From assembly GCF_029946165.1 (NCBI RefSeq), contig NZ_JAQSDZ010000008.1:124001-188000 (forward strand): a DNA stretch of 64,000 nt, given 5' to 3'. Positions within the stretch are counted from its first letter, which is position 1, and every line of letters begins with the position of its first letter. Under the pieces are notes generated by a model. That model did no database searches, was not told the DNA's origin, and worked only from the letters and a program-made list of their open reading frames with translations. A program made the position numbers and the translations under genes. Shown piece after piece: positions 13,288-33,435 of the stretch. This DNA comes from Methylotenera sp. (GTDB taxonomy: Bacteria > Pseudomonadota > Gammaproteobacteria > Burkholderiales > Methylophilaceae).

Positions 13288-14016
13288 TCAACACCAATCA
13301 GGATTTGGGATTTCGGCAAATACTTTACGTAAACCCTCACCCCAATGTTGACGCACTGAGAGAAAGTAAGGGTCGTCTTTTGCAATGCGGTGATTGTAAT
13401 CGATGCTAAGTTTATTATTTCTATACACCAGCACGTCCACTGGCAAATCAACAGACACATTACTGCGAATGGTCGAATCAAATGAGATGAGTACGCATTT
13501 AAGTGCGTCCTCTAGGCTACATTTGTAATTAATTACCCTGTCTAAAATCGGCTTGCCGTACTTAGTTTCGCCTATCTGAAAATATGGGGTTTCTTTGCTG
13601 GCTTCAATAAAATTTCCAGCAGAATATATATGGAAAAGCCGTGTAGGCTCACCCGCTATTTGCCCAGCAAACAGAACCGAGATATTAAAGTCTGTATTGT
13701 GGTGGCGTAAATGTTCGGCATCTTCTTTATGCACAGTACGGATGGCCAAACCAATTAGTCGCGCAGCATCGAACATATCGCTGACATTGAGTAAATGCTG
13801 CGTTTCATTGTTGGCGATGTCTTTATGTAAGTGTTGCAATACAGCTTGTGTAACGGCTAAATTACCAGAAGTGAGCATAATCATCGTGCGCTCGCCAGGT
13901 ACTTCAAAAGTAGTCATTTTAGGAAAAGTAGCTACTTGATCCACCCCCGCATTTGTACGGGTATCTGATGCCATGACTAATCCAGATTCTAGAAGTACTC
14001 CAACACAATAAGTCAT
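13288..14016 (-). CDS. Anbu-type proteasome-like peptidase
   Basis: A 242-residue Ntn-hydrolase fold protein of the 20S proteasome/HslV superfamily, matching the Anbu (ancestral beta subunit, also called BPH) group in length and neighbourhood. After removal of Met1, Thr1 would be the nucleophile (MTYCVGVLLESG). The MASDTRTNAG motif supplies Asp17, and FPKMTTFE supplies the basic Lys near 32. The sequence TMIMLTSGNLAVTQAVLQHL corresponds to the conserved SGxxA turn, and NYKCSLEDALKCVLISFDSTIRSNVSVDLPVDVLVY to the proteasomal C-terminal half. It is divergent, by about 200 bases, from ATP-grasp/alpha-E and transglutaminase genes, the neighbourhood characteristic of Anbu. The substrate is unknown. 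Confidence 0.87.
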   Translation of the reverse strand: MTYCVGVLLESGLVMASDTRTNAGVDQVATFPKMTTFEVPGERTMIMLTSGNLAVTQAVLQHLHKDIANNETQHLLNVSDMFDAARLIGLAIRTVHKEDAEHLRHHNTDFNISVLFAGQIAGEPTRLFHIYSAGNFIEASKETPYFQIGETKYGKPILDRVINYKCSLEDALKCVLISFDSTIRSNVSVDLPVDVLVYRNNKLSIDYNHRIAKDDPYFLSVRQHWGEGLRKVFAEIPNPDWC

Positions 14017-14217
14017 AAATGCAGCTTGAGAAATAAAGCATTAATAATAACTTTTTAATGATTAAACAAGCAACTTGTTTGCGCTGTAAATCGCGCCAAA
14101 TCAAGCTTCATTTAGGTGATTCTAGGATTTTATTTGTTAAAACTTGTTTCTATTAATGCAACTTAACCGCTGAGCCGAATTTAAGCTTAAAATGTGCTTA
14201 GGTTTTTGAGACTACAC

Positions 14218-16806
14218 ATGGCAACTTCAAATCAAAATTCACAAGCTTCTAAAGTTAATTCTTGGCTAGGTAATACGGCTGGCTATTCCGCAGGCGCAAG
14301 CAAATTGGATGAAATGCTTGATCAATCAGGCAAGGTTCGCCCGCATTGGTCATATTATATTCAAGCCTTACAAAAATTAGGGTCAACTGAAGTAAGTTTA
14401 AGGCAGAATGAAATTCACAAGTTACTCCGTGAGAACGGCGTCACTTACAATGTGTATGGTGACCCTGATGGCAGCAGTAGGCCTTGGCAGCTAGATTCCG
14501 TTCCATTGCTACTTGCGAATGAAGAGTGGCGCGAGATTGAGCTTGGTCTGCTTGAGCGTGCAGAGCTTCTTAACCTAATTTTGGCGGACATTTACGGGCC
14601 GCGCGAGCTTATTCGACAAGGCTTGTTACCGATTGAGATGTTGTATAACCACAGCGGTTTTTTACGCGCTTGTGACAAAATTAAAATACCAGGTAAACAT
14701 CAATTAGTGCTTTATGCGGCAGACTTAGCCCGCGGTCCTGATAATCGTATGTGGGTCATTGGCGACCGCACCCAAGCGCCTTCTGGGGCTGGATATGCTT
14801 TGGAAAACAGGCTGGCAATGTCGCGTGTTTTTCCCAATATTTTTCGTGACACACAAGTACAACGCTTGGATGGCTTTTTTCAATCGTTGCGTCATGGTAT
14901 GCAAGAAATTGCACCGCAAAATTCAGATGCGCCAAGAGTAGTTGTACTTACACCGGGGCCGTTTAATGAAACCTTCTTTGAACATGCTTATTTAGCTTCA
15001 CATTTAGGCTATCCTTTGGTTCAAGGGGATGACTTAACCGTGCGTGATGGCTTTGTTTGGTTGAAATCACTGAATGGTTTGCAGCGCGTAGATGTGATTA
15101 TGCGCCGTATGGACGATGTATTTTGTGATCCACTAGAGTTGCGTGATGATTCACGTTTAGGTATTCCAGGCCTGTTAGAAGTAGCGCGCAGAGGCAATGT
15201 GACGATTGCAAACCCTTTAGGCAGCGGCGTATTAGAAAGCCCAGGTTTATTGCCATTTTTACCAAAAATAGCACAATACTTTTTAGGCAAACCACTGCGT
15301 TTGCCTAGTGCCGCCACATGGTGGTGCGGTCAGCCCAAAGAGCTAGATTATGTGCTTAATAATCTAAATAAATTGGTCATTAAACATATTTGCCGTGGCG
15401 CTGTTACCTCGGTTTTTGGTATTCAGTTGAATCACCAACAAATCACTTATTGGCGCGACCGTATTCGTGCCAACCCAGCATTTTTTGTCGGGCAAGAACA
15501 TGAAATTTTCTCTACCGCGCCCTCATTGGTGGATGGTCATTTAGAGCCGCGTCAGTCATTGATGCGCTGTTTTATGGTTGCCCAAGAAGGTGGTTATAAG
15601 CTCATGCCTGGCAGCCTCACACGCAGCGCGGCGCAAACAGAAGATGTGCTGGTTTCAAATCAGCTAGGCGCAATGAGTAAAGATACCTGGATAGTGGGTG
15701 GCAATACCACGCAACAAAACAGTCCTGCAGCAAGTAAGCATAATGAATTAAATAGTAACAGTTACTCCAGCACGCTTTCAAGCCGCGTTGCCGAAAATTT
15801 ATTTTGGGTGGGGCGTTATGCCGAACGTACAGAAGGTAGCATTCGCCTGCTTCGCACGACAGTTAAAAAACTTTATATCAATCCAGATAATAGTAATGTG
15901 TATTTTCAGCATAGTTTGCACACGATGTTGCGTAGCTTAACTAACATTACCAATACTTACCCAGGTTTTTTGGGTGATGCAACTAAAGAAGCCACCGCAT
16001 TACTGCAAACACCAGATGGCGAATTGTTGGCATTAATGTTAGATGAAGAAAAAGTCGGTAGCATTGCCAATAATCAGCGTAGTTTGGTGCAAGCGGGTTA
16101 TACCGTGCGTAATTTGTGGTCATCGGATACTTGGCGGGTAATGGACGACATTAAGTCCCACTTAGAACAATCCCAGCAACTCACAGAATCTACATTGTGG
16201 AATATTCAAGAGCACATGGATGGATTAATCACCGCATTATCAGCATTCAGCGGCTTGATTATGGAAAGCATGACACGTGGTAACGGTTGGCTATTTTTAG
16301 ATATTGGCCGTCGCCTAGAGCGCGCATTACTGCTAATTTCACTATTACGAAGTAGCTTCTCTACCGCGCAAGCTTCAGGCACAGAACAACTTTTAATGGA
16401 ATCATTGCTGGAAACCAGCGATAACCTGATTTGCTACCGTGAGCATTATCGCAATAGCATAGAGCTACCTTCATTTATCGAATTGCTGATGTTAGATAAA
16501 AATAATCCACGCTCTTTGGCCTACCAATTTAGTCGCATTCAAGAACACGTGAACAAAATGCCGCGAAAACAAAGCAACGCACAGCTTAGTGTAGAAGAAC
16601 GTCTCATATTAGAAGCGTGTAGTCTGTTAGATCTAACCAATATTAACGACTTGATTAAAACTACACAGGCGCATGTGCGTGAGAATTTAGATCAAACACT
16701 AAGCCGTTTGTATTATTTAATCGCCACCTTATCCGACAGCATTACTGTTACCTATTTCAAACACGGGCAGCTACAACATTCTCTCAACGAAGTCAGGCCA
16801 GTTTAG
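14218..16806 (+). CDS. Fused circularly permuted ATP-grasp / alpha-E protein
   Basis: The first 480 or so residues are a circularly permuted ATP-grasp (DUF404/DUF407-type) module with LRENGVTYNVYGDPDGSSRPW, VIGDRTQAPSGAGYALENRLAMSRVFP and VVVLTPGPFNETFFEHAYLA blocks. Residues from about 520 (SSRVAENLFWVGRYAERTEGSIRLLRTT) to the end are an alpha-E domain, an all-helical partner. ATP-grasp enzymes activate carboxylates with ATP to form amide-type bonds, so peptide or isopeptide synthesis is the family-level inference. ATG 14218 is preferred; a GTG at 14194 is the alternative. The next gene, a transglutaminase-fold protein, follows after nine bases. A split version of the same two modules lies at 28942-31385. 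Confidence 0.88.
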   Translation: MATSNQNSQASKVNSWLGNTAGYSAGASKLDEMLDQSGKVRPHWSYYIQALQKLGSTEVSLRQNEIHKLLRENGVTYNVYGDPDGSSRPWQLDSVPLLLANEEWREIELGLLERAELLNLILADIYGPRELIRQGLLPIEMLYNHSGFLRACDKIKIPGKHQLVLYAADLARGPDNRMWVIGDRTQAPSGAGYALENRLAMSRVFPNIFRDTQVQRLDGFFQSLRHGMQEIAPQNSDAPRVVVLTPGPFNETFFEHAYLASHLGYPLVQGDDLTVRDGFVWLKSLNGLQRVDVIMRRMDDVFCDPLELRDDSRLGIPGLLEVARRGNVTIANPLGSGVLESPGLLPFLPKIAQYFLGKPLRLPSAATWWCGQPKELDYVLNNLNKLVIKHICRGAVTSVFGIQLNHQQITYWRDRIRANPAFFVGQEHEIFSTAPSLVDGHLEPRQSLMRCFMVAQEGGYKLMPGSLTRSAAQTEDVLVSNQLGAMSKDTWIVGGNTTQQNSPAASKHNELNSNSYSSTLSSRVAENLFWVGRYAERTEGSIRLLRTTVKKLYINPDNSNVYFQHSLHTMLRSLTNITNTYPGFLGDATKEATALLQTPDGELLALMLDEEKVGSIANNQRSLVQAGYTVRNLWSSDTWRVMDDIKSHLEQSQQLTESTLWNIQEHMDGLITALSAFSGLIMESMTRGNGWLFLDIGRRLERALLLISLLRSSFSTAQASGTEQLLMESLLETSDNLICYREHYRNSIELPSFIELLMLDKNNPRSLAYQFSRIQEHVNKMPRKQSNAQLSVEERLILEACSLLDLTNINDLIKTTQAHVRENLDQTLSRLYYLIATLSDSITVTYFKHGQLQHSLNEVRPV

Positions 16807-16815
16807 CAAAATCAC

Positions 16816-17712
16816 ATGCACTATAAAATCACTCATATCACTAAGTACGATTACACCAATAAAGTTTCTCTGTCATACAGCGAAGCCCGCTTAATGCCAA
16901 GAAACTGTAAGAATCAACAAGTGATTTCATCCACGCTGGATATAGAACCTTACGCGGCAGACTTTCGTATTCGCGAAGACTTTTTTGGTAATCCTGTGGC
17001 GCATTTTTCTATGCAGCAAGCACATAATGTTTTCACTATTACCGCAATAAGCGAAGTACAGCTACAAGAAAACCCAACCCAACTAGACTTTTATCAGGGG
17101 TATAAGTGGGAAGAAGTGCGGGACATGTTAGCGCAACAGCAGTATTTTTTAGCACAATCTGCAGAAATGTTAGATGCCCGTCAATACACACTAAATTCAC
17201 CATTGGTGGCTGTAAGTGCAGAGCTGGCGGAATACGCGCAACCTTCTTTCACAAAGGGCAGGTTAATCACAGATGCGGTGAATGACTTAATGCAACGTAT
17301 TTATAAGGACTTTACCTTTGATCCAGACTTTACCACCCTCGCCACGCCGCTGGCCACTGTATTAGAGCACAGAAGAGGGGTTTGTCAGGATTTTGCACAC
17401 CTTGCAATTGGCTGCTTACGTTCATTAGGATTAGCCGCACGCTATGTGAGTGGCTACATAGAAACCATACCACCCGCGGGCAAAACCAAGTTGATTGGCG
17501 CAGATGCCTCACATGCTTGGTTTTCAGTCTACGTGCCCGAACAAGGCTGGGTAGATTTTGACCCCACCAATAACCAAATGCCCAGCACCAAACACATCAC
17601 GCTGGGCTGGGGAAGGGATTATGCCGATATTACCCCACTAAAAGGCGTGATATTTGGCGGCCAACAGCACGAGTTAGATGTTTCGGTGCATGTAGAGTGT
17701 TTAGATTCGTAA
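16816..17712 (+). CDS. Transglutaminase-like cysteine protease-fold protein
   Basis: A 298-residue protein with the bacterial transglutaminase N-terminal beta region (MHYKITHITKYDYTNKVSLSYSEARLMPR) and a transglutaminase core. The catalytic triad is visible as Cys190 (RRGVCQDFAH), His233 (ASHAWFSVYV) and Asp249 (WVDFDPTNN). Such enzymes can hydrolyse or form peptide and isopeptide bonds. It lies nine bases downstream of the fused ATP-grasp/alpha-E gene, so both are likely one transcript, and Anbu is divergent. The three genes form the classic Anbu-associated set. It has no signal peptide, so the site of action is probably cytoplasmic. Confidence 0.9.
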   Translation: MHYKITHITKYDYTNKVSLSYSEARLMPRNCKNQQVISSTLDIEPYAADFRIREDFFGNPVAHFSMQQAHNVFTITAISEVQLQENPTQLDFYQGYKWEEVRDMLAQQQYFLAQSAEMLDARQYTLNSPLVAVSAELAEYAQPSFTKGRLITDAVNDLMQRIYKDFTFDPDFTTLATPLATVLEHRRGVCQDFAHLAIGCLRSLGLAARYVSGYIETIPPAGKTKLIGADASHAWFSVYVPEQGWVDFDPTNNQMPSTKHITLGWGRDYADITPLKGVIFGGQQHELDVSVHVECLDS

Positions 17713-17719
17713 GCCTAAT

Positions 17720-18385
17720 TTACCTTATAGGGTTTTTGATTACTTGATTACGTCTCCGTGTTACAAACCCTACAACCCCAAGACCTAATATGAGCATGCC
17801 ATAAGTTTCAGGTTCAGGAACAGGGCTCACTGAGACTTTCCAAGAACCTGGCTGACCTCTGTGTTCTCCTTCGAATGTGACAAATGGTTCATCATAACCA
17901 TTAATGCTATCACTAAGATTTGATGAGCTCATATCAATAAAATGGCCGCGTCCACCGTAAAATGCAAATCGATTTAGATTGATATTCCAAGTGCTTGGCA
18001 GTCCATCTGCACTAAAACTACCTATATTTAGATATCCGCCTACTTGTGGATTGAATTCATCGGGAGTTGGCCCAGGATAAATCAACTCTGTGGGGTTTGT
18101 TAAGCTTGTAGTAAAAATTTTCAGTGAAGTTATATTGTCGATACTCGAGCTGGTAGTTAAAAGTCCAACAGTCTGAATCTCGATCCCTAATGAAATTTCA
18201 TCTGTATAGCCCACCATTTCCCATTGGACGTCATCGATCTGAGTCATTACATGGTAAGTTTCTAGAAACGGGTTTCCAGTGTAACTGTATATATAGTTAG
18301 CCTTAGCTAGACTAGGAAACATTGTGAGAAGGATAAAGCCGAGGGGAAGGATTGTTTTGATAAACTTAGAAAAAGCCTTTTTCAT
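17720..18385 (-). CDS. PEP-CTERM sorting-domain exported protein
   Basis: A 221-residue secreted protein. It has a signal peptide (MKKAFSKFIKTILPLGFILLTMFPSLAKA) and a C-terminal PEP-CTERM signal: VPEPETYGMLILGLGVVGF followed by TRRRNQ, that is, a Pro-Glu-Pro motif, one membrane helix and a basic tail. Exosortase (EpsH/XrtA-type) cleaves such signals in species that make exopolysaccharide, and no exosortase gene is in this window. The middle is a Ser/Thr/Gly-rich beta-type sequence with no recognised fold. It ends seven bases from the convergent transglutaminase gene and appears monocistronic. Confidence 0.88.
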   Translation of the reverse strand: MKKAFSKFIKTILPLGFILLTMFPSLAKANYIYSYTGNPFLETYHVMTQIDDVQWEMVGYTDEISLGIEIQTVGLLTTSSSIDNITSLKIFTTSLTNPTELIYPGPTPDEFNPQVGGYLNIGSFSADGLPSTWNINLNRFAFYGGRGHFIDMSSSNLSDSINGYDEPFVTFEGEHRGQPGSWKVSVSPVPEPETYGMLILGLGVVGFVTRRRNQVIKNPIR

Positions 18386-18586
18386 GGGGAACTCCTTTCA
18401 GAAATCCACTTATTTAGAGATGTTAGAAAACATTGCTAAATACATAAAGCTTAATGAGTAAATATTGCGTTTTAACCAATATCGGCAAAATACAATATTT
18501 ATCATTGTTCTAAGTTTACGCTGCTAAATTTGCTAATACAATAAACTCAGTGGATTGTGAAGGTGAGTTTTAATTATTAGTTTATT

Positions 18587-19438
18587 CTAATTTTTCAACG
18601 GGTTATCTTCCGCATAAGCGAATCCAATTTTCTTTAGCTTAGCTTGATACATGGCTTTATCTGCAGAGTTAATCAACTCTTCCGAAGAGTTTCCATCTTT
18701 AGGATAAATGGATATGCCAATACTAGGATTGATCACTATATCCTGCCCTGCTAAACGACAAGGTTGCTGAATTGAGTTAATGATTTTATGGGCAATTAAA
18801 TCAATATCGCTTTTACTTTCCATTTGCATTAACAAATAAAGAAACTCATCACCCCCATGCCGGCTAACTGTGTCATCTTCACGCGTTACATCTAACAAAC
18901 GTTTAGATATGGTTTGCAACAAGGTATCTCCGACACCATGTCCATAAATATCATTAATTTCTTTAAATTTATCAAGGTCCAAAAACATCACTGCTAAAGT
19001 CCAGTGATATCGATTAGCCTGCGCCAGTGCATGTTCTAGCCTATCAGTAAACAGAGCGCGATTAGGCAGACCTGTTAATGTGTCATGCAGTGCATCGTGG
19101 CGATCAGAATCTCCTTGAGCCTTAACCTCGATTAACTGATCTTCTAATCGCTCTCGCTCTACAATTTCTTCTGCAAGCGCTTCATTAACAATGGTTAGTT
19201 GTTCAGCGACATCCTCTACTTTATCTTTAACAGCATCACTCTTTTCAATAGCATTTTCTACTTCTAAATTCGTCTCTTGATTTGCTAATTCTTGCTTAAG
19301 TACTTCGTTGACTGAAGAGAGCTCCTCGACACAATTCGTCACATTGTCTTTTATAAGCTCACTCTTTTTCAAAACCTTAGACAAGGAAATTGTTTTTTTA
19401 TTTGGATTAGATACATCTGAAGCTTTATTTTTTTTCAT
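18587..19438 (-). CDS. Soluble GGDEF diguanylate cyclase with duplicated coiled-coil N-terminus
   Basis: A 283-residue protein that should make c-di-GMP. The GGDEF domain begins at HDTLTGLPNRALF (about 118) and carries an intact RHGGDEF (Gly195-Phe199). No RxxD inhibitory site was recognised five residues ahead of it. No membrane helix or signal peptide is visible. The N-terminal 110 residues are a helical, charged coiled coil containing two related copies of about 30 residues, at about 25-54 and 66-95 (KSELIKDNVTNCVEEL versus KSDAVKDKVEDVAEQL). It is alone on its strand and upstream of the divergent Crp-like regulator. Confidence 0.88.
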   Translation of the reverse strand: MKKNKASDVSNPNKKTISLSKVLKKSELIKDNVTNCVEELSSVNEVLKQELANQETNLEVENAIEKSDAVKDKVEDVAEQLTIVNEALAEEIVERERLEDQLIEVKAQGDSDRHDALHDTLTGLPNRALFTDRLEHALAQANRYHWTLAVMFLDLDKFKEINDIYGHGVGDTLLQTISKRLLDVTREDDTVSRHGGDEFLYLLMQMESKSDIDLIAHKIINSIQQPCRLAGQDIVINPSIGISIYPKDGNSSEELINSADKAMYQAKLKKIGFAYAEDNPLKN

Positions 19439-20461: not shown

Positions 20462-20490
20462 TTAATGTTTTTTTTTGATATAAAAATCAC

Positions 20491-23286: not shown

Positions 23287-23342
23287 TTTTCAATTCCTAA
23301 AACCAAGCATGTTCAATGGCTCACTTATTTAGAGTGCAATCT

Positions 23343-26300
23343 CTAATTCGCATGCCACCTTAAATCTAACGTAAATGGATAGTCACGGTTATTTAACTCA
23401 GTGGGCGGTTCCATTTGTTTCACCGCTATATTAGCGGCATCCTTCGGCGATTTAATTGTGCCTGGTGTATGTTCAAGAACGGTAAAACGGCTTACGCGGC
23501 GGCCTTCAGCTTCATAAGCATTGACTGGCAAGGTGTCATAGTTACGACCTCCCGGATGCGTGACATGATAAGTACAACCGCCAACAGAGCGGCCATTCCA
23601 TGTGTCGATCACATCAAACACCAGCGGTGCTTGCACGCCTATGCTTGGGTGCAATGCAGAAGGTGGGTTCCAAGCGCGGTAACGTACCCCTGCGACCATT
23701 TCACCTTGTGTGCCAGTGTCACGTAGCGGCAAGCGGCGACCGTTGCAGGTAATTACATAGCGTTCACCTGTAATGCCAGTGAGTTTAACTTGCAGGCGTT
23801 CAACCGAAGAATCGACATATCTAGCTGTGCCGCCGCTAGTGATTTCCTCACCTAATACATGCCAAGGCTCAATTGCGGTTCTGAGTTCAAGTTGTAAGTC
23901 TTGAATTTCTAATGTGCCGCAACGTGGAAAGCGGAATTCAATAAACGGCGCAAACCAATCTTTAGAAAATGCATAGCCAGCAGCTTGTAAATCTTGCGCG
24001 ACATCTTCAATATCGCGTTCAATAAAGTGCGGCAGCATAAAGCGGTCATGTAACTGTGTGCCCCAACGTACCAGTGGTTTTTTGTAGGGCTCTTTCCAAA
24101 ATCTTGCCACTAAAGCGCGTAGTAGCAATATTTGCACCAAGCTCATATGCGCATGCGGTGGCATTTCAAAAGCACGGAGTTCTAATAAGCCAAGTCGACC
24201 AGTATCTGAGCCCGGCGCATAGAGCTTATCAATACAGAATTCACTGCGATGCGTATTGCCCGTCATATCCACAAGCAAATTGCGTAATAAGCGATCTACC
24301 AACCACGGCGCGGGTACTTCACCATCTGGCATTTGTTGAAAGGCGATTTCTAACTCGTACAAGCTATCATTACGCGCTTCATCAACGCGCGGTGCTTGGC
24401 TAGTTGGGCCAATAAACAAACCTGAAAACAGGTATGACAATGAAGGGTGATGCTGCCAATACGTTATTAAGCTGCGTAGCAAATCAGGGCGGCGCAAAAT
24501 GGGGCTATCCGCTGGCGTAATTCCACCCAGCGTGACGTGATTACCGCCTCCCGTGCCAGTATGACGGCCATCCAGCATGAATTTCTCAGAGCCTAGTCTG
24601 GTTAAACGTGCTTGTTCATACAATATCGTTGTGTTGTTAACCAAAGCATCCCAACTGGCGGCTGGGTGAATGTTAACTTCAATCACACCAGGGTCTGGCG
24701 TGACAGGTAAGCGAGTTAAGCGTAAGTCGTGAGGCGGTTGATAACCTTCAATCACCACAGGCATGTTTAAGGTGCTAGAGGTGGCTTCAATGGAGGCAAT
24801 GATGTCTAAATAATGTTCTAACTTATTGGTGGGCGGTAGAAAGACATGCAAGCGTCCGCCTCTGGTTTCTACGCACAAGGCTGTATGCGGCGTAAATTCT
24901 GGGTCTGCTGGCGGTGCTTCTTCATCAGCTTCAACATCAACACCGTCATCCACCACGCCCATCTCGTTTCTATGCATATTCTCTTTGGTGAATTTGCTAT
25001 AACGGCGGCTAACTTCAGAATCAATATCCGCTAGTGGCTCTACCGCTTCATACAAGCTACGCTCATGTTCGTGGTCGCGGTCTTCAAAGGCTATCCAAGG
25101 CAATGAGCTTAATGGCAGGCGCAATCCCATAGCGGAATCGCCCGGCGCTAGAAACATTTCTCCACGTCTAAATTCCCAAGCGCTGCTGCTCCAAGCGTTG
25201 CGCTGGTGACTCCAATGCAGTGGAAGTAAATAGCCAACTGGCGCGCCTAAATCTCCCGTGAGCACTTTTGTCAGGCGCTTGCGCTCTAAATCATCTTTAA
25301 GGTCTGATTTGAGTGGGTTTAGATTGTTTGGTAATAAGCCTTCAGCTAATAAGTAGTAAAGCGGGTCTTCATAACCCGCACAAATATGGCTGCCTTTCAG
25401 ACCTAGTCGTTTTGCTAGGTCGCGAATGAAGGTGTCAGCTTGTGTTTGATTTAAGCCATAGTCTTTGTTTTCATCGGCTAAAAGCTCAGGGTTACGCCAA
25501 ACGGGTTTGCCATCTTTACGCCAAAAGCAGGCGAGTTGCCAACGAGGTAGCGCTTCGCCCGGGTACCATTTTCCTTGTCCAAAATACAGCAAACCGCCTG
25601 GTGCAAAGCTATCGCGTAAACGTCTGACTAACTGACCAGCTAATTGACGTTTTTCCACACCATCAGCATCAATATTCCATTCTGGCGCATCCATATTATC
25701 GATAGAGATAAAAGTCGGTTCGCCACCCATGGTGAGGCGCACATCTCCTGCTTCTAATTCAACATCTATCTTTTGACCTAGCGCATTAATCTCTACCCAT
25801 TGCTGTTCGCTATAAGGTTTGGTGACGCGCGGATCTTCGTGAATACGGGTGACATTATTGCTAAAACTAAATTCGATATTGGCTTGACCTGTATAGCCGC
25901 CAGTCACAGGGGCTGCGCTGACATAATCAGCCGTGCAAGCGAGTGGGATATGACCTTCACCAGCCAATAAGCCAGAAGTTGCATCTAAGCCTATCCAACC
26001 TGCGCCGGGAATATACACTTCAGCCCATGCATGCAAGTCGGTAAAGTCAACTTCGGTACCAGATGGGCCATCCAAAGATTTAACATCAGCCGTGAGCTGC
26101 ACCAAATAGCCAGAAACGAATCGAGCGGCTAAGCCCATGTGGCGCATGGCTTGCACTAGCAACCAAGCAGAATCACGACAAGAACCTAATCTTTTGTCTA
26201 AGGTTTCTTCACATGTTTGCACGCCTACTTCCATGCGAATAGAGTAATTGACCGTTTGATTAACGCGCTGATTTAAGTACACCAGAAAATCTACAATGGC

Positions 26301-26717
26301 TTTTTTACCAACGTCAATTTCTGCTAACCACGCTTTGAGCGAAGGCCCTTGTTCGCGCACTTCTAAGTAGGGCGCAAGCTCTTTAAGTAACTGCTCTGGA
26401 TAAGCAAACGGATAATTCTCTGCGTATTCTTCCAAGAAGAAATCGAAAGGATTAATCACCGTCATTTCAGCAATCAAATCCACTTCAATAGAAAGCACGG
26501 TAGATTTTTCTGGAAAAACCACGCGCGCAAGATAATTGCCAAATGGATCTTGCTGCCAACTAATAAAATGATTCTCAGGTAATATTTTAAGTGAGTAAGC
26601 GCTCACAGGCGTGCGCGAGTGCGCCGCTGGCCGAAGACGGAAAACATGCGGAGTAAGTTGCACAGGGTTATCATAGTGATAAGCTGTTTTATGGTGTAGC
26701 GCGACTCGAATAGTCAT
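23343..26717 (-). CDS. Transglutaminase-DUF2126 giant protein
   Basis: A 1,124-residue protein. The N-terminal 290 residues are a transglutaminase-like module with the bacterial N-terminal beta region and a complete triad: Cys180 (KRLGSCRDSAW), His229 (TDLHAWAEVYIPG) and Asp245 (WIGLDATSG). The rest, from about residue 300, is a long DUF2126 region with motifs such as DVRLTMGGEPTFIS, LDGRHTGTGGGNHVTLGG and LRAFEMPPHAHMSLVQ. DUF2126 is often considered related to circularly permuted amidoligases; that link is family knowledge, not visible here. It is the last member of the minus-strand ATP-grasp/alpha-E operon, and 39 bases separate it from the HPPD-like gene. Confidence 0.9.
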   Translation of the reverse strand: MTIRVALHHKTAYHYDNPVQLTPHVFRLRPAAHSRTPVSAYSLKILPENHFISWQQDPFGNYLARVVFPEKSTVLSIEVDLIAEMTVINPFDFFLEEYAENYPFAYPEQLLKELAPYLEVREQGPSLKAWLAEIDVGKKAIVDFLVYLNQRVNQTVNYSIRMEVGVQTCEETLDKRLGSCRDSAWLLVQAMRHMGLAARFVSGYLVQLTADVKSLDGPSGTEVDFTDLHAWAEVYIPGAGWIGLDATSGLLAGEGHIPLACTADYVSAAPVTGGYTGQANIEFSFSNNVTRIHEDPRVTKPYSEQQWVEINALGQKIDVELEAGDVRLTMGGEPTFISIDNMDAPEWNIDADGVEKRQLAGQLVRRLRDSFAPGGLLYFGQGKWYPGEALPRWQLACFWRKDGKPVWRNPELLADENKDYGLNQTQADTFIRDLAKRLGLKGSHICAGYEDPLYYLLAEGLLPNNLNPLKSDLKDDLERKRLTKVLTGDLGAPVGYLLPLHWSHQRNAWSSSAWEFRRGEMFLAPGDSAMGLRLPLSSLPWIAFEDRDHEHERSLYEAVEPLADIDSEVSRRYSKFTKENMHRNEMGVVDDGVDVEADEEAPPADPEFTPHTALCVETRGGRLHVFLPPTNKLEHYLDIIASIEATSSTLNMPVVIEGYQPPHDLRLTRLPVTPDPGVIEVNIHPAASWDALVNNTTILYEQARLTRLGSEKFMLDGRHTGTGGGNHVTLGGITPADSPILRRPDLLRSLITYWQHHPSLSYLFSGLFIGPTSQAPRVDEARNDSLYELEIAFQQMPDGEVPAPWLVDRLLRNLLVDMTGNTHRSEFCIDKLYAPGSDTGRLGLLELRAFEMPPHAHMSLVQILLLRALVARFWKEPYKKPLVRWGTQLHDRFMLPHFIERDIEDVAQDLQAAGYAFSKDWFAPFIEFRFPRCGTLEIQDLQLELRTAIEPWHVLGEEITSGGTARYVDSSVERLQVKLTGITGERYVITCNGRRLPLRDTGTQGEMVAGVRYRAWNPPSALHPSIGVQAPLVFDVIDTWNGRSVGGCTYHVTHPGGRNYDTLPVNAYEAEGRRVSRFTVLEHTPGTIKSPKDAANIAVKQMEPPTELNNRDYPFTLDLRWHAN

Positions 26718-26756
26718 TAATGTGTCACCTTCTGTTGAGTCGTCATTATTGTGATG

Positions 26757-27989
26757 CTAGCTAGCACTTTCAGCTTGTAATAAACGTAAGCTCTCTTCAA
26801 CACCAGCTGCTTTAGTTAATTCAGCCACGTTCTGTTTGGTGAAGAATCCATCAAAATCGCCAAAGCGTTGTACATATTCAATGATGAGTGAGGAGTGTTC
26901 TGAGGCGCTGGAGAAAATTTGTTTTAGGCCTTCTTCGCGTGAGCCAATCACATCTAATAAAAAGTCTTTACCTTTTTCTCTAATCACATCGACCACGTAA
27001 TCAATATTAATCTGACCATTGGTTTCGCCATCTGCCACGCCCAGTGCAATGTGGTGCAAACGCGGACCATAATTACGCACAAAGTTTTCAGTTGGTGACG
27101 GTAAGCCGACTAAGTGATTAACGAAGTAAGGATGATTAGCCGCCGTGAAAACTTTTGCAGGGCTTTTTTGCTCATTATTATAGTGCGCGCTTTTAGTCAC
27201 ATTGGTTGAAGAGTTTTGGCTGGCAATATCGTATGAGCCCCAGTAGTAATAGCTGGAAAGCGTGAGATACTCAAGTATTGCCACCTCACGATTTTGGCTG
27301 TAAATACGCGTTGCTAAGTGGTCAATTGGTAAAATTAACTTATCCAAACCTAGTTTGGCTTGCGTGTCTTTGGCTTCAAGATATCCGCGATTCACATCTT
27401 GATGAATCACACTTACGCCAAGCGCATAAATACGAATATCACCGACTGGTCGCTCCCAATAACCCACAATATTGTGGGTGTAGGGCGATGGTTTGACGAT
27501 AGACATATTGCCAGGTAGTTCTAACTTGCGAATTTGATCTTGATTGAAAAAGCGAATCTCGCGGGCTTTTTGTAGCTCAACCACTTCATGCTGATTAGTT
27601 ACCCGGAAGATTTCGCCCATATAGCGCGAGTTTGGCTTGTGCGCGCCTATCGGGTAAACCTCATTCAAACTGCGGAAAATACCATGCGTATTGGGGTCGC
27701 GTACTTCGCGCACCAAAATGTCTGGTGAATTCATATCGATACGTAAAATATGCGTCCAATGTGATTCTGATTCTAGCGTGACTAAGTAGTGGTAAGGCGT
27801 CATTAACGCCAACTCGCTGATGTAAGCCACCGAGCAACCCGGCTCAACAGTAATCATCATGGCGTCAATTTCATGCACCATGTCAGTCAAGCCGATGCGA
27901 TCTCTATCTTCCAATAGTTTGGGTAGAAACTCTTCAAACCAAGGTGAATTAACCTTGTCGCCGTGGCGTTGGTATTGCAGTGAGTTCAT
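26757..27989 (-). CDS. HPPD-like vicinal-oxygen-chelate (VOC) fold protein
   Basis: A 410-residue protein I cannot name with confidence. Its second half resembles 4-hydroxyphenylpyruvate dioxygenase-type VOC enzymes: PIDHLATRIYSQNREVAILEYL gives a candidate iron ligand His224, GPRLHHIALGVAD gives His312 or His313, and LIIEYVQRFGDFDGFF gives Glu371, the 2-His-1-Glu pattern. The first 200 residues lack any family I recognise. A non-heme iron oxygenase is therefore the best guess. It lies between the Ser-type transglutaminase gene and the giant transglutaminase-DUF2126 gene on the same strand, with gaps of about 59 and 39 bases, so it probably belongs to this operon. Confidence 0.6.
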   Translation of the reverse strand: MNSLQYQRHGDKVNSPWFEEFLPKLLEDRDRIGLTDMVHEIDAMMITVEPGCSVAYISELALMTPYHYLVTLESESHWTHILRIDMNSPDILVREVRDPNTHGIFRSLNEVYPIGAHKPNSRYMGEIFRVTNQHEVVELQKAREIRFFNQDQIRKLELPGNMSIVKPSPYTHNIVGYWERPVGDIRIYALGVSVIHQDVNRGYLEAKDTQAKLGLDKLILPIDHLATRIYSQNREVAILEYLTLSSYYYWGSYDIASQNSSTNVTKSAHYNNEQKSPAKVFTAANHPYFVNHLVGLPSPTENFVRNYGPRLHHIALGVADGETNGQINIDYVVDVIREKGKDFLLDVIGSREEGLKQIFSSASEHSSLIIEYVQRFGDFDGFFTKQNVAELTKAAGVEESLRLLQAESAS

Positions 27990-28048
27990 TAGGATTTCCG
28001 AAATGTAAAAATAATTATGGCTAATTGCTAGAAAATTGAAAGACTTAG

Positions 28049-28876
28049 TTATTGCTGCATTTGCGAAATTTCATGCACTTTAAAATCTACCGACATTTTA
28101 TCGTTGGCAATGTCATGCATCACGCTGCTTACCGGGCATGCATCACGGTAATCCAGACCAGTGGCTAGCCTAATATGTATGCCGTTTGACGGCATATTAT
28201 TGGCTATATCGAAGCTTTGCCAGCCAGTTTCTAGCAGCCAAGCATCCGCCCAGCTATGGTTTTCAATTTGTTTAGTTGCGGGGTTAAAACAGTAGCCATG
28301 TACTAATCGCGCGGGAATCTTTAAAGCCCTGCAACAACTAATAAATAGATGCGTCATACCCTGACTTAATGCTTTGCCAGCAGCAAAAGTTGAAATCGCT
28401 GATTGTTGATTTTCAGCAGTGGTTTTATCCCACTTAATAGTTTGAGAAACGCCATCCATTAATGCTGTTAATAAGTTTTGGTTAATAGTGTCATGCTGTG
28501 ATGCTATATTTTGCGCAAACTTAATAATGGCTTCATTGGCTATAGTGAGTGAGGTATTTCTCAAGTAAATAGGTAGCGCCAAGTCATCGTGTTTAATTTT
28601 ATTTGTTTCTAACAAATCTTCGGAGCTATCAAGATCAGTTTCTACTTCACCCGTAGCGATAATCATAATTTCTTGATGTGGTGCATCCTTCACCAAGGTG
28701 TGTGTGATATTGCCAAAAGCATCAGTCTGAGTGGATGATAGCCCGCTTACCTTCAATTGCCAGTTGTTCACGCGCTGACCAAAGCCATCTTGAGGTGTGA
28801 GGCGTAATTGCTGTATGGTATACCCAACAAGCTTGTTGAATGCGAAGCGGGTATGGTGTTCAATATTAAACTTCAT
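28049..28876 (-). CDS. Transglutaminase-fold protein with Ser replacing the catalytic Cys
   Basis: A 275-residue protein with the N-terminal beta region (MKFNIEHHTRFAFNKLVGYTIQQLRLTPQ) and a transglutaminase core. Where active relatives read G-V-C-Q-D-F-A-H, this protein reads A-L-S-Q-G-M-T-H, so Ser171 stands in the nucleophile position. His207 (ENHSWADAWL) and Asp223 (SFDIANN) are kept, as are the HLFISCCRALKIPARLVHGY helix and strand. The codon is AGT, one change from TGT. It may be a pseudoenzyme, a binding subunit, or use serine. It lies between the alpha-E gene and the HPPD-like gene on one strand. Confidence 0.85.
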   Translation of the reverse strand: MKFNIEHHTRFAFNKLVGYTIQQLRLTPQDGFGQRVNNWQLKVSGLSSTQTDAFGNITHTLVKDAPHQEIMIIATGEVETDLDSSEDLLETNKIKHDDLALPIYLRNTSLTIANEAIIKFAQNIASQHDTINQNLLTALMDGVSQTIKWDKTTAENQQSAISTFAAGKALSQGMTHLFISCCRALKIPARLVHGYCFNPATKQIENHSWADAWLLETGWQSFDIANNMPSNGIHIRLATGLDYRDACPVSSVMHDIANDKMSVDFKVHEISQMQQ

Positions 28877-28941
28877 CGCGATCTCCCCACTTATAAGTTT
28901 ATCTTTACGGCGAATAGTTAAGCCTAATCATTAATTTCAAA

Positions 28942-29952
28942 TTAGGCTGATACTTTGCTTTGGCTTTGCGTTTGACCTCCCACTACATTCACTTTTTCAG
29001 GTTCGTTGACTAATGGCGCATTCAAATAAGTGCGCTGAATCTCAATACCGAGGCGATTGTTCTGCCTGAGGAATGCTTCTAAAAACTCATGCAACCCGCC
29101 TCTGAAAATATCTTCAATACGACCGTAATGCAAACTTGAATGCATTTCACCCGCTAAACGTTTGCATTCGCGACCCGCATCGCCCGTGAGTTGGTCAAGT
29201 ATTGTCGTAAGTTCATTCATACATGCGTGCAGCGATCGCGGCATGTCTTGACGTAACACCAGAAGTTCAGCGACACGCAAAGGCATCACTGCATCGCGAT
29301 ACACTTTTAAATAGGCTTCATAAGCACTGGCAGAACGTAGCAGTGCGCTCCATTCGTAATAATCTACTGCGCCGCCCACATCGCTGGCTGAAGGTAACAA
29401 TAGGTGATATTTCACATCAAGCAGGCGCGCCATGTCGTCAGCGCGTTCGATAAACCCACCCAAACGTGTGAATCTGAAGCCATCATCACGCAACATCGTG
29501 CCGTAAGTCACGCCGCGGAACAGATGTGAGCGTGATTTCACCCAATCACAAAATTCTGACAAGCCGCTTTCTAAAATTAGCTTTTTGTCCATTTGCTGAA
29601 ACTCTAGCCATAAGCTATTAATGTTTTCCCACATTTCGGAAGACATGGCTACACGCACGGCATGTGCATTTTCGCGCGCAGCACGTAGGCAATTGTAAAT
29701 ACTCGACAAATTGCGACTGTCCATTGCAATGTAGTAAATCACATTGTGCGCGGTGACTTCATCATAAGCTTTATGAAAATCTTCTTTGGTGTCAGAAATA
29801 TGTAGCAATGGCACCCAAAGCGCCGCCTCACTTTGAGCGGCATTTTGTACTAGCGACATGCGATAAGTAACTTCCAGCATACGCGCCATGTTTTCTGCAC
29901 GTTCAATATAACGAGCCATCCAATAAAGGTGATCAGCGGTGCGACTTAGCAT
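28942..29952 (-). CDS. Alpha-E domain protein
   Basis: A stand-alone alpha-E (all-helical) protein of about 336 residues, the usual size for the family. It opens with MLSRTADHLYWMARYIERAENMARMLEVTYRM, the diagnostic alpha-E block, and contains FRGVTYGTMLRDDGFRFTRLGGFIERADDMARLLDVKYHLLL near residue 165. The start at 29952 is chosen because ATGCTAA overlaps the stop codon of the ATP-grasp gene, the signature of translational coupling; a start at 29964 is less likely. Alpha-E domains always accompany circularly permuted ATP-grasps and are thought to form a complex with them. Confidence 0.9.
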   Translation of the reverse strand: MLSRTADHLYWMARYIERAENMARMLEVTYRMSLVQNAAQSEAALWVPLLHISDTKEDFHKAYDEVTAHNVIYYIAMDSRNLSSIYNCLRAARENAHAVRVAMSSEMWENINSLWLEFQQMDKKLILESGLSEFCDWVKSRSHLFRGVTYGTMLRDDGFRFTRLGGFIERADDMARLLDVKYHLLLPSASDVGGAVDYYEWSALLRSASAYEAYLKVYRDAVMPLRVAELLVLRQDMPRSLHACMNELTTILDQLTGDAGRECKRLAGEMHSSLHYGRIEDIFRGGLHEFLEAFLRQNNRLGIEIQRTYLNAPLVNEPEKVNVVGGQTQSQSKVSA

Positions 29953-31385
29953 TGCAACACCCATGTATCTTTAGTGCCGCCACCTTGCGATGAGTTAACC
30001 ACTAAAGACCCTTCATTCATTGCCACACGACACAATGCGCCAGGCACGACTGAGGTTGTTTTACCTGTTAAGACATAAGGGCGCAAATCTACATGGCGTG
30101 GCGCCACGCCTTGCTCAACCATGGTTGGACAAGTAGAAAGTGCTAATGTAGGTTGGGCAATGTAATTATCAGGGTCCGCAATAATACGTAATCTAAATTC
30201 TTCAATTTGCGCTTTGCTTGAGGTAGGGCCAACGAGCATGCCATAGCCACCAGAGCCTTGCACTTCTTTAACCACCAATTCAGCAAGGTGATCTAACACA
30301 TATTTTCTATCGTCTTCCTTACTGAGCTTATAGGTTGGAACATTTGACAAAATCGGCTCCTCACCCAAATAAAACTTAATCATTTCAGGCACATAGGTAT
30401 AAGTTGCTTTGTCATCAGCTACGCCTGTGCCGATGGCATTCGCTAACGCTACACCGCCATTACGATAGACTGAAACCAACCCAGGTACACCCAACATGGA
30501 GTCTTGCCTGAATGCCAATGGGTCAATAAAGTCATCGTCTATACGGCGATAAATCACATCAATCTTTTTAGGCCCTTCGGTGGTGCGCATGAAAACAGCA
30601 TTGTCTTTCACAAACATATCGCGACCTTCAACTAGCTCAATGCCCATTTGTTGTGCAAGAAAGGCATGCTCAAAGTAGGCGCTGTTGTATGCACCAGGCG
30701 TCATTAGTACTACGGTAGGGTTACTGGTTGCGCCACGGGGCGCAACTGCTCTAAGGTTTTCAAGCAGAAGTTGCGGATAATGTTCAACGGGTGAAATAGG
30801 ATATTGTCTGAAAAGTTCAGGGAATAATCGCATCATCATGCGACGATCTTCCAGCATGTATGAAACACCAGAAGGCGTTCGTAAGTTATCTTCTAATACA
30901 TAAAATGTATCCGCTTCGGTGCGCACAATATCAATGCCTGCGATATGTGCATACACGCCGCCCGGCACGTCTACCCCTTGCATCTCTGGCCTGTACATTT
31001 CGTTGGTCAGTATGCTGTCAGGCATGATGCCAGCTTTAATAATGTCTTGGCCGTGATAGATGTCATTCAAAAACATATTAAGTGCCCGCACACGTTGGCA
31101 AGCGCCTGCGGAGAGCTTTGCCCATTCACTTGCGGCTAAAATTCGGGGGATTACGTCAAATGGAATCAAGCGCTCAGCGCCTTCTTCTTCGCCATAAACC
31201 GCAAATGTGATGCCAACTCGTCGAAACAATAGTTCAGCATCGCGAGATTTTTGCGCAAGTTGAGAAAAGTCTTTGCCACCTAACCACTTAGCATAAGGCG
31301 CGTAAACTTGTCTAACGCCTTTTTTTGAATCTACAGATTCATCAAATGCCGTGAGCAGTTTATTTTTATAATCAATAGAAGCCAT
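29946..31385 (-). CDS. Circularly permuted ATP-grasp protein
   Basis: A 479-residue circularly permuted ATP-grasp, corresponding to the first 480 residues of the fused protein at 14218. Shared blocks include FRRVGITFAVYGEEEGAERLIPFDVIPRI, VLEDNLRTPSGVSYMLEDRRMMMRLFPELF, VVLMTPGAYNSAYFEHAFLA and VIYRRIDDDFIDPLAFR. ATP-dependent carboxylate-amine ligation is the family-level inference; substrates are unknown. It leads the minus-strand operon, followed with a stop-start overlap by alpha-E. A divergent gap of 378 bases separates it from a second set of transglutaminase genes on the plus strand. Confidence 0.9.
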   Translation of the reverse strand: MASIDYKNKLLTAFDESVDSKKGVRQVYAPYAKWLGGKDFSQLAQKSRDAELLFRRVGITFAVYGEEEGAERLIPFDVIPRILAASEWAKLSAGACQRVRALNMFLNDIYHGQDIIKAGIMPDSILTNEMYRPEMQGVDVPGGVYAHIAGIDIVRTEADTFYVLEDNLRTPSGVSYMLEDRRMMMRLFPELFRQYPISPVEHYPQLLLENLRAVAPRGATSNPTVVLMTPGAYNSAYFEHAFLAQQMGIELVEGRDMFVKDNAVFMRTTEGPKKIDVIYRRIDDDFIDPLAFRQDSMLGVPGLVSVYRNGGVALANAIGTGVADDKATYTYVPEMIKFYLGEEPILSNVPTYKLSKEDDRKYVLDHLAELVVKEVQGSGGYGMLVGPTSSKAQIEEFRLRIIADPDNYIAQPTLALSTCPTMVEQGVAPRHVDLRPYVLTGKTTSVVPGALCRVAMNEGSLVVNSSQGGGTKDTWVLQC

Positions 31386-31764
31386 AAGTCATTACTTGCA
31401 AGGGCCGTGCCAACTCATACAAAAATTATCAATCTCTATATTGAATGCGCTTTCCAGAGCTGTTCCTAATTAAATTAATTGCATAAGCAATAGGTGTTAT
31501 TAAGTCCACTTTAACAGATGCGCTGGTTTGGTGCATACCTAACTGAGCAAAGTGTTTTGTTAGTGCGTAATTTCATCAAATTTCCCTCAACGTAAACTCT
31601 GTAGCCTATTTCAGGCTAATTAGGTGAAGTAGACTGGTCAAACTTAAAAAAATTAGCTTTTGGTACAATTGTTGCTGTATCTTCTGGGTAATTTCTTTAG
31701 ATATGTGGCTTCGTTAACAGATGCTTAACCATAGATTGCTTAGAATAATAAAAAGGAGACAACT
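31386..31764. other. Divergent intergenic region of the ATP-grasp/transglutaminase operons
   Basis: This stretch should contain the start sites of both the minus-strand ATP-grasp operon and the plus-strand transglutaminase pair. AAAGGAG at about 31751-31757 is the ribosome binding site for ATG 31765. No clear operator, repeat or extra gene was found. Confidence 0.45.
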
Positions 31765-32562
31765 ATGTGGCTACATACCCAATGCGATATTACTTTTGAC
31801 GTTGCTATACCAACACCGTTCATTTTGATGCTTAGGCCGCGCAGCGGTGTTAATCAATGGATAGCACGCGAGTCGTATACGCTAAATCCGAGCGTACCAG
31901 TGGTTGAGTATACCGATAACTATGGCAATCTTTGTCAGCGCTTAATCGCGCCACAAGGTGAATTTTCAATTCATACTTCTGCTGACATTATGACCGCAGA
32001 CAACATCGATGTTTGTGCTGGCGCGCCGTTTGATGAAGTGCAGAATCTGCCTAACGAAGTGCTTACTTACCTGTTACCTACGCGCTATTGTGAGTCAGAT
32101 CGCTTTATCGATTTAGGTCAGGAGCTAGTTGCTGGCGTGGCGCCCGGTTATGACCAAGTCGCTACCATCGTGGCTTGGATACAGAACAATATTAAGTTTA
32201 ATTCAGACTCCATGCACTTTCAGCTTTCTGCGGTAGAAGTGAATCAGCAGCGTGAAGGCGTATGTCGTGAGTTGGCGCATTTGGGCATCGCACTTTGTAG
32301 AGGTTTGTGTATTCCTGCGCGTATGGTGGTGGGTTACTTGCATGGGTTAAAGCCTATGGATTTTCATGCATGGTTTGAGGCATACGTTGGTGGACGCTGG
32401 TATACCTTTGATCCAACACAACCGCATCCTATCGGAGGTCGTGTTACTGTGGCTTATGGGCGCGATGCAGCGGATGTTGCGATATTTAACCAATTTGGCC
32501 CAGCGCTATTTCCACTAGCCATGTCGGTGAGTGTGAAGATGTTAGATGCAGCACCTACCTAA
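31765..32562 (+). CDS. Transglutaminase-like protein (short form)
   Basis: A 265-residue protein of the transglutaminase fold, with a short N-terminal beta region ([28 protein letters not shown]). The triad is intact: Cys167 ([10 protein letters not shown]), His201 ([13 protein letters not shown]) and Asp216 ([12 protein letters not shown]). It forms a pair with the next gene, 18 bases downstream, and is divergent from the ATP-grasp operon. A strong AAAGGAG precedes the start. The role is presumed to be hydrolysis or transfer on peptide bonds in the same ATP-grasp system. Confidence 0.9.
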
Positions 32563-32580
32563 GGGCTATTTAATTTAAGC

Positions 32581-33435
32581 ATGCAAAGATTACGCATTAA
32601 ACATCTGACCGAATATACCTTCCCAGCGCAGGTAACGTTGAATCAACATAAGCTTTTACTGCGACCAAGAGTAGGCCATGACGTCCGTATTGAGTCTTCA
32701 AAATTAGAAATTTCGCCTAGTTATAATATTAAATGGCAGCGGGATGTATTTGATAACTCTCTGGCCATTGTCAATTTCTTAGAGCCTTCAAATAAGCTCA
32801 CTATCGCTAGTGAGGTCATTATTGAACACTATGATCAGGCACTTTTTGACCCCATGTTAGAAAGCTATGCTTCTCAATATCCATTTAGTTATGCTTTAGA
32901 TGAACAAGCGGATTTGGCAAGTTTTCAACAAAGCAGCTTTTACAACGACCAACAAGTCGTAAACACTTGGTTGCAACAACAAAACTTAATTGGCATGCAA
33001 ACTTTTAGCTTGTTAATCAATTTAAATCAAAATATTAGCAAAAATTTTCGTTACCAAATGCGAGAAGAAGCGGGGGTGCAATCGCCTTCGCAAACCCTTT
33101 CACAACGGAGCGGATCTTGTAGAGATTACGCGACGCTCTTTATTGAAGCATGTCGGTGTTTGGGGTTAGCGAGTCGATTTGTCAGTGGCTACTTACATGC
33201 CCCAGCAACAGAAGCTGGAAACGCAACCACCCACGCATGGGCTGAAGTATATTTGCCCGGCACTGGTTGGAAAGGATTCGACCCTACTTCAGGAGAGATT
33301 ACGGGTAACCACCATATTGCGGTAGCTGTTGCGCGCAATCCAGAATCAGTTCCACCAATTTCTGGTAGCTTTACTGGACTGGGCTTAATGGCCACTACGA
33401 TGCTAGTAAACGTGCAGGTTAATTTGCTGCTTTAG
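32581..33435 (+). CDS. Transglutaminase-like protein
   Basis: A 284-residue transglutaminase-fold protein whose architecture matches the N-terminal module of the giant transglutaminase-DUF2126 protein: IKHLTEYTFPAQVTLNQHKLLLRPR at the start and QRSGSCRDYATLFIEACRCLGLASRFVSGYL in the core. The triad is complete, with Cys180, His218 (TTHAWAEVYLPG) and Asp234 (WKGFDPTSG). It follows the 265-residue paralogue by 18 bases and probably shares its transcript. It could be a free-standing counterpart of the giant protein's N-terminal module. Confidence 0.9.
   Translation: MQRLRIKHLTEYTFPAQVTLNQHKLLLRPRVGHDVRIESSKLEISPSYNIKWQRDVFDNSLAIVNFLEPSNKLTIASEVIIEHYDQALFDPMLESYASQYPFSYALDEQADLASFQQSSFYNDQQVVNTWLQQQNLIGMQTFSLLINLNQNISKNFRYQMREEAGVQSPSQTLSQRSGSCRDYATLFIEACRCLGLASRFVSGYLHAPATEAGNATTHAWAEVYLPGTGWKGFDPTSGEITGNHHIAVAVARNPESVPPISGSFTGLGLMATTMLVNVQVNLLL

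Follow-up and report, generated by a model that had tools for sequence, protein, structure and literature searches.

Genes for the N-terminal-nucleophile hydrolase Anbu occur in operons together with those for an ATP-grasp protein, an alpha-E protein and a transglutaminase, and a role in peptide synthesis or tagging has been proposed for these Anbu operons (PMC5666114, PMC6376114). The ATP-grasp protein of the Y. bercovieri operon releases phosphate (PMC6376114). An operon that is homologous by annotation, PP_2685-PP_2688 of P. putida KT2440, is induced by nitrogen limitation. Here we describe a related locus of Methylotenera sp. (assembly GCF_029946165.1, contig NZ_JAQSDZ010000008.1), which occupies positions 13288-33435 of the 64,000-nucleotide stretch that was analyzed (hereafter the window). 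The same four components are present, but in this genome Anbu adjoins a fused ATP-grasp/alpha-E protein, the transglutaminase-fold protein TG_C of the operon that encodes separate ATP-grasp and alpha-E proteins carries serine in place of its cysteine, and that operon continues with genes for a protein resembling 4-hydroxyphenylpyruvate dioxygenase (HPPD) and for a fusion of a transglutaminase domain to DUF2126. The founding analysis, by Iyer and colleagues in 2009, may already mention inactive members or DUF2126.

Ten reading frames noted in a first-pass annotation of this stretch were confirmed within its coordinates, and nine of the proteins match Pfam families far beyond chance: Proteasome (E-value 5.5e-08, Anbu), CP_ATPgrasp_2 (5.6e-149 and 4.7e-165, fused and split forms), Alpha-E (1.5e-70 and 2.7e-102) and, in five proteins, Transglut_core (3.6e-23 to 4.9e-17). 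The parts list of that annotation (Anbu, fused and split ATP-grasp/alpha-E sets, five transglutaminase folds) is thus in place, and its overall interpretation is partly supported. It correctly saw two transglutaminase folds in the second operon; that the larger of these proteins also carries DUF2126 went unmentioned, and recognition of this domain on the 1124-residue protein brings the number of candidate ligases at the locus to three, belonging to two kinds. Also missed were a signature of nitrogen regulation and the recurrence of the HPPD-like gene. Most valuable among the results of the analysis are the loss of the ligase motif from every one of the 130 fused proteins taken from the matches listed, their pairing with DUF2126, a conserved sigma-54 site with NtrC-like dyads, and this recurring gene. 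Taken together, they suggest a pathway, induced by nitrogen limitation, in which two interlocking modules would build and dismantle an amide-linked peptide or protein conjugate, a reading we offer tentatively and hold to be somewhat short of probable.

ATP-grasp enzymes hold Mg-ATP through acidic residues and a glycine-rich loop (PMC2845819). The split, circularly permuted ATP-grasp of the window (29946-31385, minus strand; PF14403, 4.7e-165) contains the motif E165-D-N167-L-R169 and a GGYG loop, both intact, and aligns with the solved chain 3n6x at an E-value of 7e-251. By analogy with glutathionylspermidine synthetase, we take the ExN motif to be the carrier of such acidic residues. In a first set of loci, motif and loop are kept in 42 of 42 split proteins, whereas the glutamate, asparagine and arginine are kept in none of 13 fused ones; 118 further fused frames, from among the best-scoring matches listed (a scope that applies to all larger counts of the fused protein below), and 11 further split frames were added later. 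Glu165, Asn167, Arg169, Lys373, Gly380 and Gly382 are all retained in 53 of 53 split proteins. Among 130 fused proteins, Glu165 is found in 2, Asn167 in none, the two together in none and Arg169 in 6; Lys373 is found in 36, both glycines in 2 and all residues together in none, the alignment being less certain near 373-382 than near 165. Ten loci repeating a genome or a near-identical strain were dropped before the promoter, NtrC and first motif counts, and L211, from the same genome as L068, was left out of the final motif counts. Rows with internal stops are not part of the fused set, nor are two long stop-free frames (G247:C7 and G453:C1:1439707) in which alpha-E lies in a separate frame. 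The listed fused protein occurs in 119 genomes, this one and 118 others, and in all 118 alpha-E starts in the same uninterrupted frame.

The fused protein of the window (14194-16806, plus strand) reads GDRTQAPSG where the split protein reads EDNLRTPSG, and its glycine loop is lost. The same motif replacement appears in a separate alignment with 3n6x (E-value 4.2e-95), and in a phylogenetic tree a single change separates fused from split ATP-grasps. With Glu, Asn and the glycine loop gone, the fused one of the two sets is predicted not to act as an ATP-grasp ligase. The gene is nonetheless under purifying selection, with ratios of nonsynonymous to synonymous substitution (dN/dS) of 0.049-0.055 in three pairs of sequences and saturation in a fourth; all such ratios given here are rough, because dS approaches or exceeds 1 in many pairs. 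From these data and the gene pairing described below, we read the fused protein as a probable pseudo-ATP-grasp kept as a partner of DUF2126. The human pseudo-ATP-grasp TTLL12 offers a parallel, in that a ligase-like domain has reportedly been kept where the expected reaction was not found, although subfamily and biology are unrelated. A literature search combining pseudoenzymes with ATP-grasp or circular permutation found nothing on these points in the open-licence literature, most subscription papers being outside its scope.

Alternatively, the fused protein might have kept its active site and changed its chemistry, as some pseudokinases did, so that the new motif holds a different nucleotide, or else an intermediate, phosphorylated or acyl, passed on by DUF2126. 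The replacement residues do form a conserved motif of their own, D-R/H-T-Q-A-P-S-G-x-G, with Arg167 in 104, Gln169 in 113 and Gly175 in 129 of the 130 proteins. The region of the glycine loop is variable and gapped, however, as expected of a protein without a bound nucleotide, and the ligand is purely hypothetical; we regard this alternative as somewhat unlikely.

The locus probably has its second working ligase in DUF2126. The gene (23343-26717, minus strand) encodes 1124 residues, of which 1-275 form the transglutaminase domain TG_B and 276-1124 match DUF2126 (PF09899) over its full length with 1360 bits against a cut-off of 27. Pfam names this family 'Putative amidoligase enzyme'. Its fusion to a transglutaminase domain with an intact triad recurs in the other DUF2126 rows scored, and the domain has motifs that are invariant over 17 aligned rows. 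DUF2126 is encoded in 107 of the 119 genomes with a listed fused protein (Fisher p 2.6e-67 in a phylum sample of 398 genomes), and the two genes lie within 400 bases of each other in 29 of the 30 genomes measured, those at the top of the list. This frequent pairing with a fused ATP-grasp/alpha-E lacking the metal motif adds to the prior description of the family. A sequence search of the PDB with DUF2126 returned four hits, all at E-values of 0.41 or worse, and a search for papers on DUF2126 or COG4196 found none on these points in the open-licence literature, with most subscription papers outside its scope.

Between the DUF2126 and TG_C genes lies the HPPD-like gene (26757-27989, minus strand), whose VOC-type product represents an unnamed family. 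The first-pass annotation's likening of this protein to HPPD survives only in profile comparison; no match over cut-off was obtained with Pfam or NCBIfam. An hhalign comparison with HPPD gave a probability of 45% and an E-value of 2.2e-4, against a probability of 0.1% and E-values of 0.51 and 0.8 for two controls. The C-terminal half is in register with the HPPD profile, including the DH, QHIA/HHIA and FFExxQR/IIEYVQR motifs (DH, HIA and E-x-x-QR in common), and the N-terminal half is unmatched. HPPD binds iron through two histidines and one glutamate; His224, His313 and Glu371 of the HPPD-like protein, invariant in 22 rows, align with these ligands. Searches of the PDB with phmmer gave hits at E-values of 0.35 or worse, the query in alignment form retrieving one glyoxalase (0.77). 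The genome has no TIGR01263 match. These comparisons are suggestive of a relation to HPPD. A search for papers that combine HPPD, ATP-grasp and transglutaminase found nothing in the open-licence literature, most subscription papers being outside its scope.

A scan of named genomes, with patterns that favor close relatives, found this gene at 29 loci in Methylophilaceae, Sideroxydans, Gammaproteobacteria and Zetaproteobacteria, its products being 70-97% identical, one of them a fragment. The gene adjoins cluster genes at 25 of the 29 loci, in at least three arrangements: it follows TG_C or alpha-E inside the operon, is oriented divergently from ATP-grasp/alpha-E (L107, L109, L112, L113), or sits beside the fused gene or TG_A (L106, L108, L110). 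In the genomes of the remaining four loci (L111, L114, L115, L118) alpha-E is encoded elsewhere, and all 18 genomes with the gene that were tested encode alpha-E. In the phylum sample, the gene is present in 7 of 398 genomes, with alpha-E in all 7 (p 0.016) and DUF2126 in 6 (p 0.0036); taken alone, the co-occurrence with alpha-E in this sample is weak. In both ATP-grasp and alpha-E, the gammaproteobacterial and Sideroxydans loci stand very far from Methylophilaceae, whereas in the HPPD-like protein they do not, and thus the HPPD-like gene has joined two old cluster lineages. Independent gain within Methylophilaceae was considered because the lineage of the window looks nearer the gammaproteobacterial copies, and was set aside, since a single clade for the family stands unrejected (p-AU 0.369).

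Could the HPPD-like gene be a passenger, carried along by the cluster without any role in it? It is found in only 13 of 61 near relatives (this genome and 60 others) as well as in few genomes of the phylum sample, and lies apart from the cluster at the four loci just mentioned. It is also split into two frames in one relative (L088 11796-13059, genome G021) and reduced to a 118-residue remnant in another (L089 17604-17960, genome G004), with ATP-grasp, alpha-E and TG_C kept in both. Nevertheless, mere hitch-hiking accords poorly with the several positions that the gene takes next to cluster genes, one of them divergent from an ATP-grasp/alpha-E pair of a very distant lineage, with a sigma-54 site of its own (at most one mismatch) at 4 of 11 loci outside Methylophilaceae (L107, L111, L112, L113), and with dN/dS of 0.020-0.038 in four pairs. 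We therefore consider a passenger unlikely.

The fold was rightly assigned to all five transglutaminase-like proteins by the first-pass annotation, but the catalytic residues are complete in only four of them. In TG_A (16816-17712, plus strand; Cys190, His233 and Asp249), TG_B, TG_D (31765-32562, plus strand) and TG_E (32581-33435, plus strand), the Cys-His-Asp triad is present in every row scored. TG_C (28049-28876, minus strand) keeps His207 and Asp223 and has Ser171 in place of the cysteine. The same replacement occurs in seven genomes (the window, L081-L084, L091 and L105), and cysteine is found in all remaining rows scored, an L120 fragment having been left out. DUF2126 follows the HPPD-like gene in the operon in six of the seven (the window, L081-L084 and L105) and lies on another contig in the seventh (L091, genome G030); at two further loci of this lineage, L090 and L092, no TG_C separates alpha-E from the HPPD-like gene. 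Values of dN/dS for Ser-type TG_C (0.075, 0.103 and 0.172 in three pairs, two further pairs being saturated) exceed those of its neighbors, and compare with 0.031, 0.034, 0.052 and 0.094 for the Cys type (four pairs, two others saturated). Decay of the gene was also considered; the ratio of the serine form is still below 0.2. The pattern fits a retained pseudoenzyme whose work has been taken over by TG_B, and TG_C could instead be a serine hydrolase. At L090, one more transglutaminase-fold protein, the sixth, is encoded at 4260-5048, next to the TG_D/TG_E pair, and shares 46% identity with TG_D.

Anbu (13288-14016, minus strand) matches the solved Anbu chains 5loy and 5nyw at E-values of 1.6e-90 and 1.4e-81. 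After removal of the initiator methionine its sequence has Thr1, Asp17 and Lys32, in agreement with the threonine nucleophile and Asp17 noted at first pass and with the candidate catalytic residues Thr1, Asp17 and Lys32/33 (PMC6376114). The split alpha-E protein is encoded at 28942-29964 on the minus strand (PF04168, 2.7e-102). The ER motif of Pfam's alpha-E family (Glu21-Arg22 and Glu173-Arg174) is kept in 45 of 45 split and 13 of 13 fused proteins, the fused form differing from the split one at several other invariant residues.

The minus-strand operon runs ATP-grasp, alpha-E, TG_C, HPPD-like, TG_B-DUF2126, with intergenic gaps of at most 65 bases, and is preceded by a perfect sigma-54 site (TGGCAC-N5-TTGCA, 31397-31412, minus strand) that ends 11 bases before the ATP-grasp start. 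The window as a whole contains no more such sites than expected by chance (47 versus 48.5), and thus only position and conservation argue for the one at 31397. We scored the consensus TGGCAC-N5-TTGCW, with at most one mismatch, at frame starts in the fetched loci. It is present at 29 of 44 split ATP-grasp frames, as compared with none of 44 alpha-E, 30 Anbu or 28 TG_C frames, 1 of 17 DUF2126, 4 of 12 fused, 4 of 30 HPPD-like and 6 of 840 unassigned frames. Three of the 44 frames come from one broken gene in Methylobacillus glycogenes (L126 6560-7979), where the alpha-E, TG_C and HPPD-like frames are uninterrupted. Five of 41 split ATP-grasp loci lack a site even at two mismatches; upstream of the site in the other 36, NtrC-like dyads were found at 18 loci and not at the remaining 18, as against 12 of 720 shuffles preserving base composition only. 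The dyad of L098 is perfect and that of L084 falls below the scan criterion. In the window, a dyad with one mismatch lies between the divergent operons (31519-31535, no strand assigned) and a sigma-54-like site with one mismatch lies upstream of TG_D (31661-31676, plus strand); the GGTGCA half-site of the former and the whole of the latter are aligned in five genomes. The genome carries one NtrC over cut-off and one RpoN.

In P. putida, PP_2685 and PP_2688 are up by 4.44 and 3.99 log2 units on nitrate relative to ammonium (PMC8050072), and nitrogen limitation of the wild type raises PP_2686-PP_2688 by 12.6-, 11.0- and 14.7-fold, with 'ntrB/ntrC' named as putative regulator (PMC7801951). Nitrogen control of the split operon is thus known in P. 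putida and new in Methylotenera sp. only as a prediction from promoter sites. Within some 100 bases, the split ATP-grasp has a single in-frame start codon in the window (31383-31412) and in L081, L082 and L084, 27-30 bases from where the sigma-54 site begins; this roughly coincides with the expected transcription start and would predict a leaderless mRNA. That ATG is shared by L083 and L105, which offer one more candidate start besides, and L090, of the same lineage, has a longer leader, as do several relatives (frame lists give the first possible start codon).

In the reading that we tentatively favor, the intact split ATP-grasp of the first module, driven from the sigma-54 promoter with its NtrC-like sites, would activate a carboxylate as an acyl phosphate and join it to an amine with alpha-E as partner, as the classical ligase of the Anbu operon. 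In the second module, the DUF2126 amidoligase would be joined in one polypeptide to a functional transglutaminase domain, and the fused ATP-grasp/alpha-E, its ATP chemistry lost, would act as a scaffold or hold the substrate. Transglutaminase-fold enzymes would trim or transfer, Anbu would cleave, and the HPPD-like metal enzyme may oxidize or rearrange a building block or product. The transglutaminase of the first module would have lost its cysteine in this Methylotenera lineage, the DUF2126-fused one presumably taking over. From the gene content, motif loss, promoter sites and co-occurrence that we observe, we infer the substrate, product, order of steps and scaffold role, and hence the function and product of the cluster. 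If the fused protein is indeed a pseudoenzyme partner of DUF2126, the locus would no longer be one of two ATP-grasp ligases: a single ATP-grasp ligase would stand beside a DUF2126 ligase and a scaffold. Nitrogen starvation would then tell when to seek the product, whose chemistry is hinted at by the HPPD-like gene.

Several observations weigh against this reading. Of the 120 genomes that encode DUF2126, 13 have no listed fused partner, and of the 119 with a listed fused protein, 12 lack DUF2126. The view of DUF2126 as a ligase rests on Pfam's name, and neither its fold nor that of the HPPD-like protein is confirmed by AlphaFold2 prediction, mean pLDDT (predicted local distance difference test) being 35.5 for the DUF2126 domain (7-row alignment) and 36.3 for the HPPD-like protein (22 rows). 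A sigma-54 site is lacking at 15 of the 44 split ATP-grasp frames, and the scan of the window at up to one mismatch found none at the fused gene or Anbu, so that this arm may not be nitrogen-controlled here; an exact site stands at the fused gene in two relatives (L084, L099). Unlike the regulation predicted for the window, which comes from sites only, that of P. putida has been followed in a mutant: in an rpoN strain PP_2686-PP_2688 still rise 14.2-, 16.0- and 19.6-fold, as urtABCD also rises, which speaks against strict sigma-54 dependence in that species, and PP_2685 (Anbu) is only 1.12-fold up in the wild type (PMC7801951). Finally, the Anbu proteins tested are reported to show no peptidase activity and the operon proteins no specific interactions among themselves (PMC6376114).

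A more specific version of the conjugate pathway is speculative and, taken whole, unlikely. In it, an undescribed, oxidatively modified amide conjugate would be made in nitrogen starvation from an aromatic or 2-oxo-acid block that an HPPD-family dioxygenase provides or modifies; the live ATP-grasp and DUF2126 would join the parts in two steps, and the pseudo-ATP-grasp/alpha-E fusion, which is conserved across Pseudomonadota, would act as a platform for DUF2126 without catalysis of its own. Nitrogen salvage, one hypothesis of PMC6376114, would have Anbu degrade proteins non-specifically in starvation as transglutaminases release ammonia. It accords with the sigma-54/NtrC signature and with induction in P. 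putida (PMC8050072, PMC7801951), but the ATP cost of at least one ligase, the lack of peptidase activity and the presence of DUF2126 and the HPPD-like protein, which it leaves unexplained, make it quite improbable. The first-pass view of two paralogous ATP-grasp ligase sets, working in parallel on different substrates, draws on the strong matches of both proteins to CP_ATPgrasp_2, the alignment of the fused protein with 3n6x over its length, its purifying selection and its retention of Asp152 and Arg155 in 92 and 115 of the 118 further rows, and is rendered very improbable by the absence of Glu165 and Asn167 together from every fused protein and by the scarcity of Lys373 and the loop glycines in the less certain part of the alignment.

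The host genome measures 2.94 Mb, and its closest relatives by cluster are Methylotenera records. As the first-pass annotation anticipated, the system recurs in relatives, where the usual gene order is that of the classical Anbu operon: ATP-grasp, alpha-E, TG_C, Anbu. Among the 61 near-relative genomes, alpha-E is found in 35 and DUF2126 in 17, and DUF2126 is present in all 13 genomes with two alpha-E matches. The Anbu/ATP-grasp/alpha-E system is widespread, alpha-E occurring in 212 of the 398 genomes of the phylum sample and DUF2126 in 120. All 120 of the latter have alpha-E, 111 of them with at least two matches, as compared with DUF2126 in 9 of 89 single-alpha-E genomes. The co-occurrence of two sets, which had been put forward for testing, is borne out by the 123 of 398 genomes with at least two alpha-E matches. 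By these counts in both samples, two sets per genome are common and not special to Methylotenera sp.

A role in defense was also considered; PADLOC gave no match. Fifty-six bases after the DUF2126 gene, on the same strand, lies a gene for phosphoenolpyruvate (PEP) carboxylase (20491-23286), which is possibly co-transcribed with the operon; the arrangement is the same in L081-L084 and L105. Between the two arms of the cluster, positions 17720-18385 encode a protein ending VPEPETYGMLILGLGVVGFVTRRR..., a terminus that we take to resemble a PEP-CTERM sorting signal.

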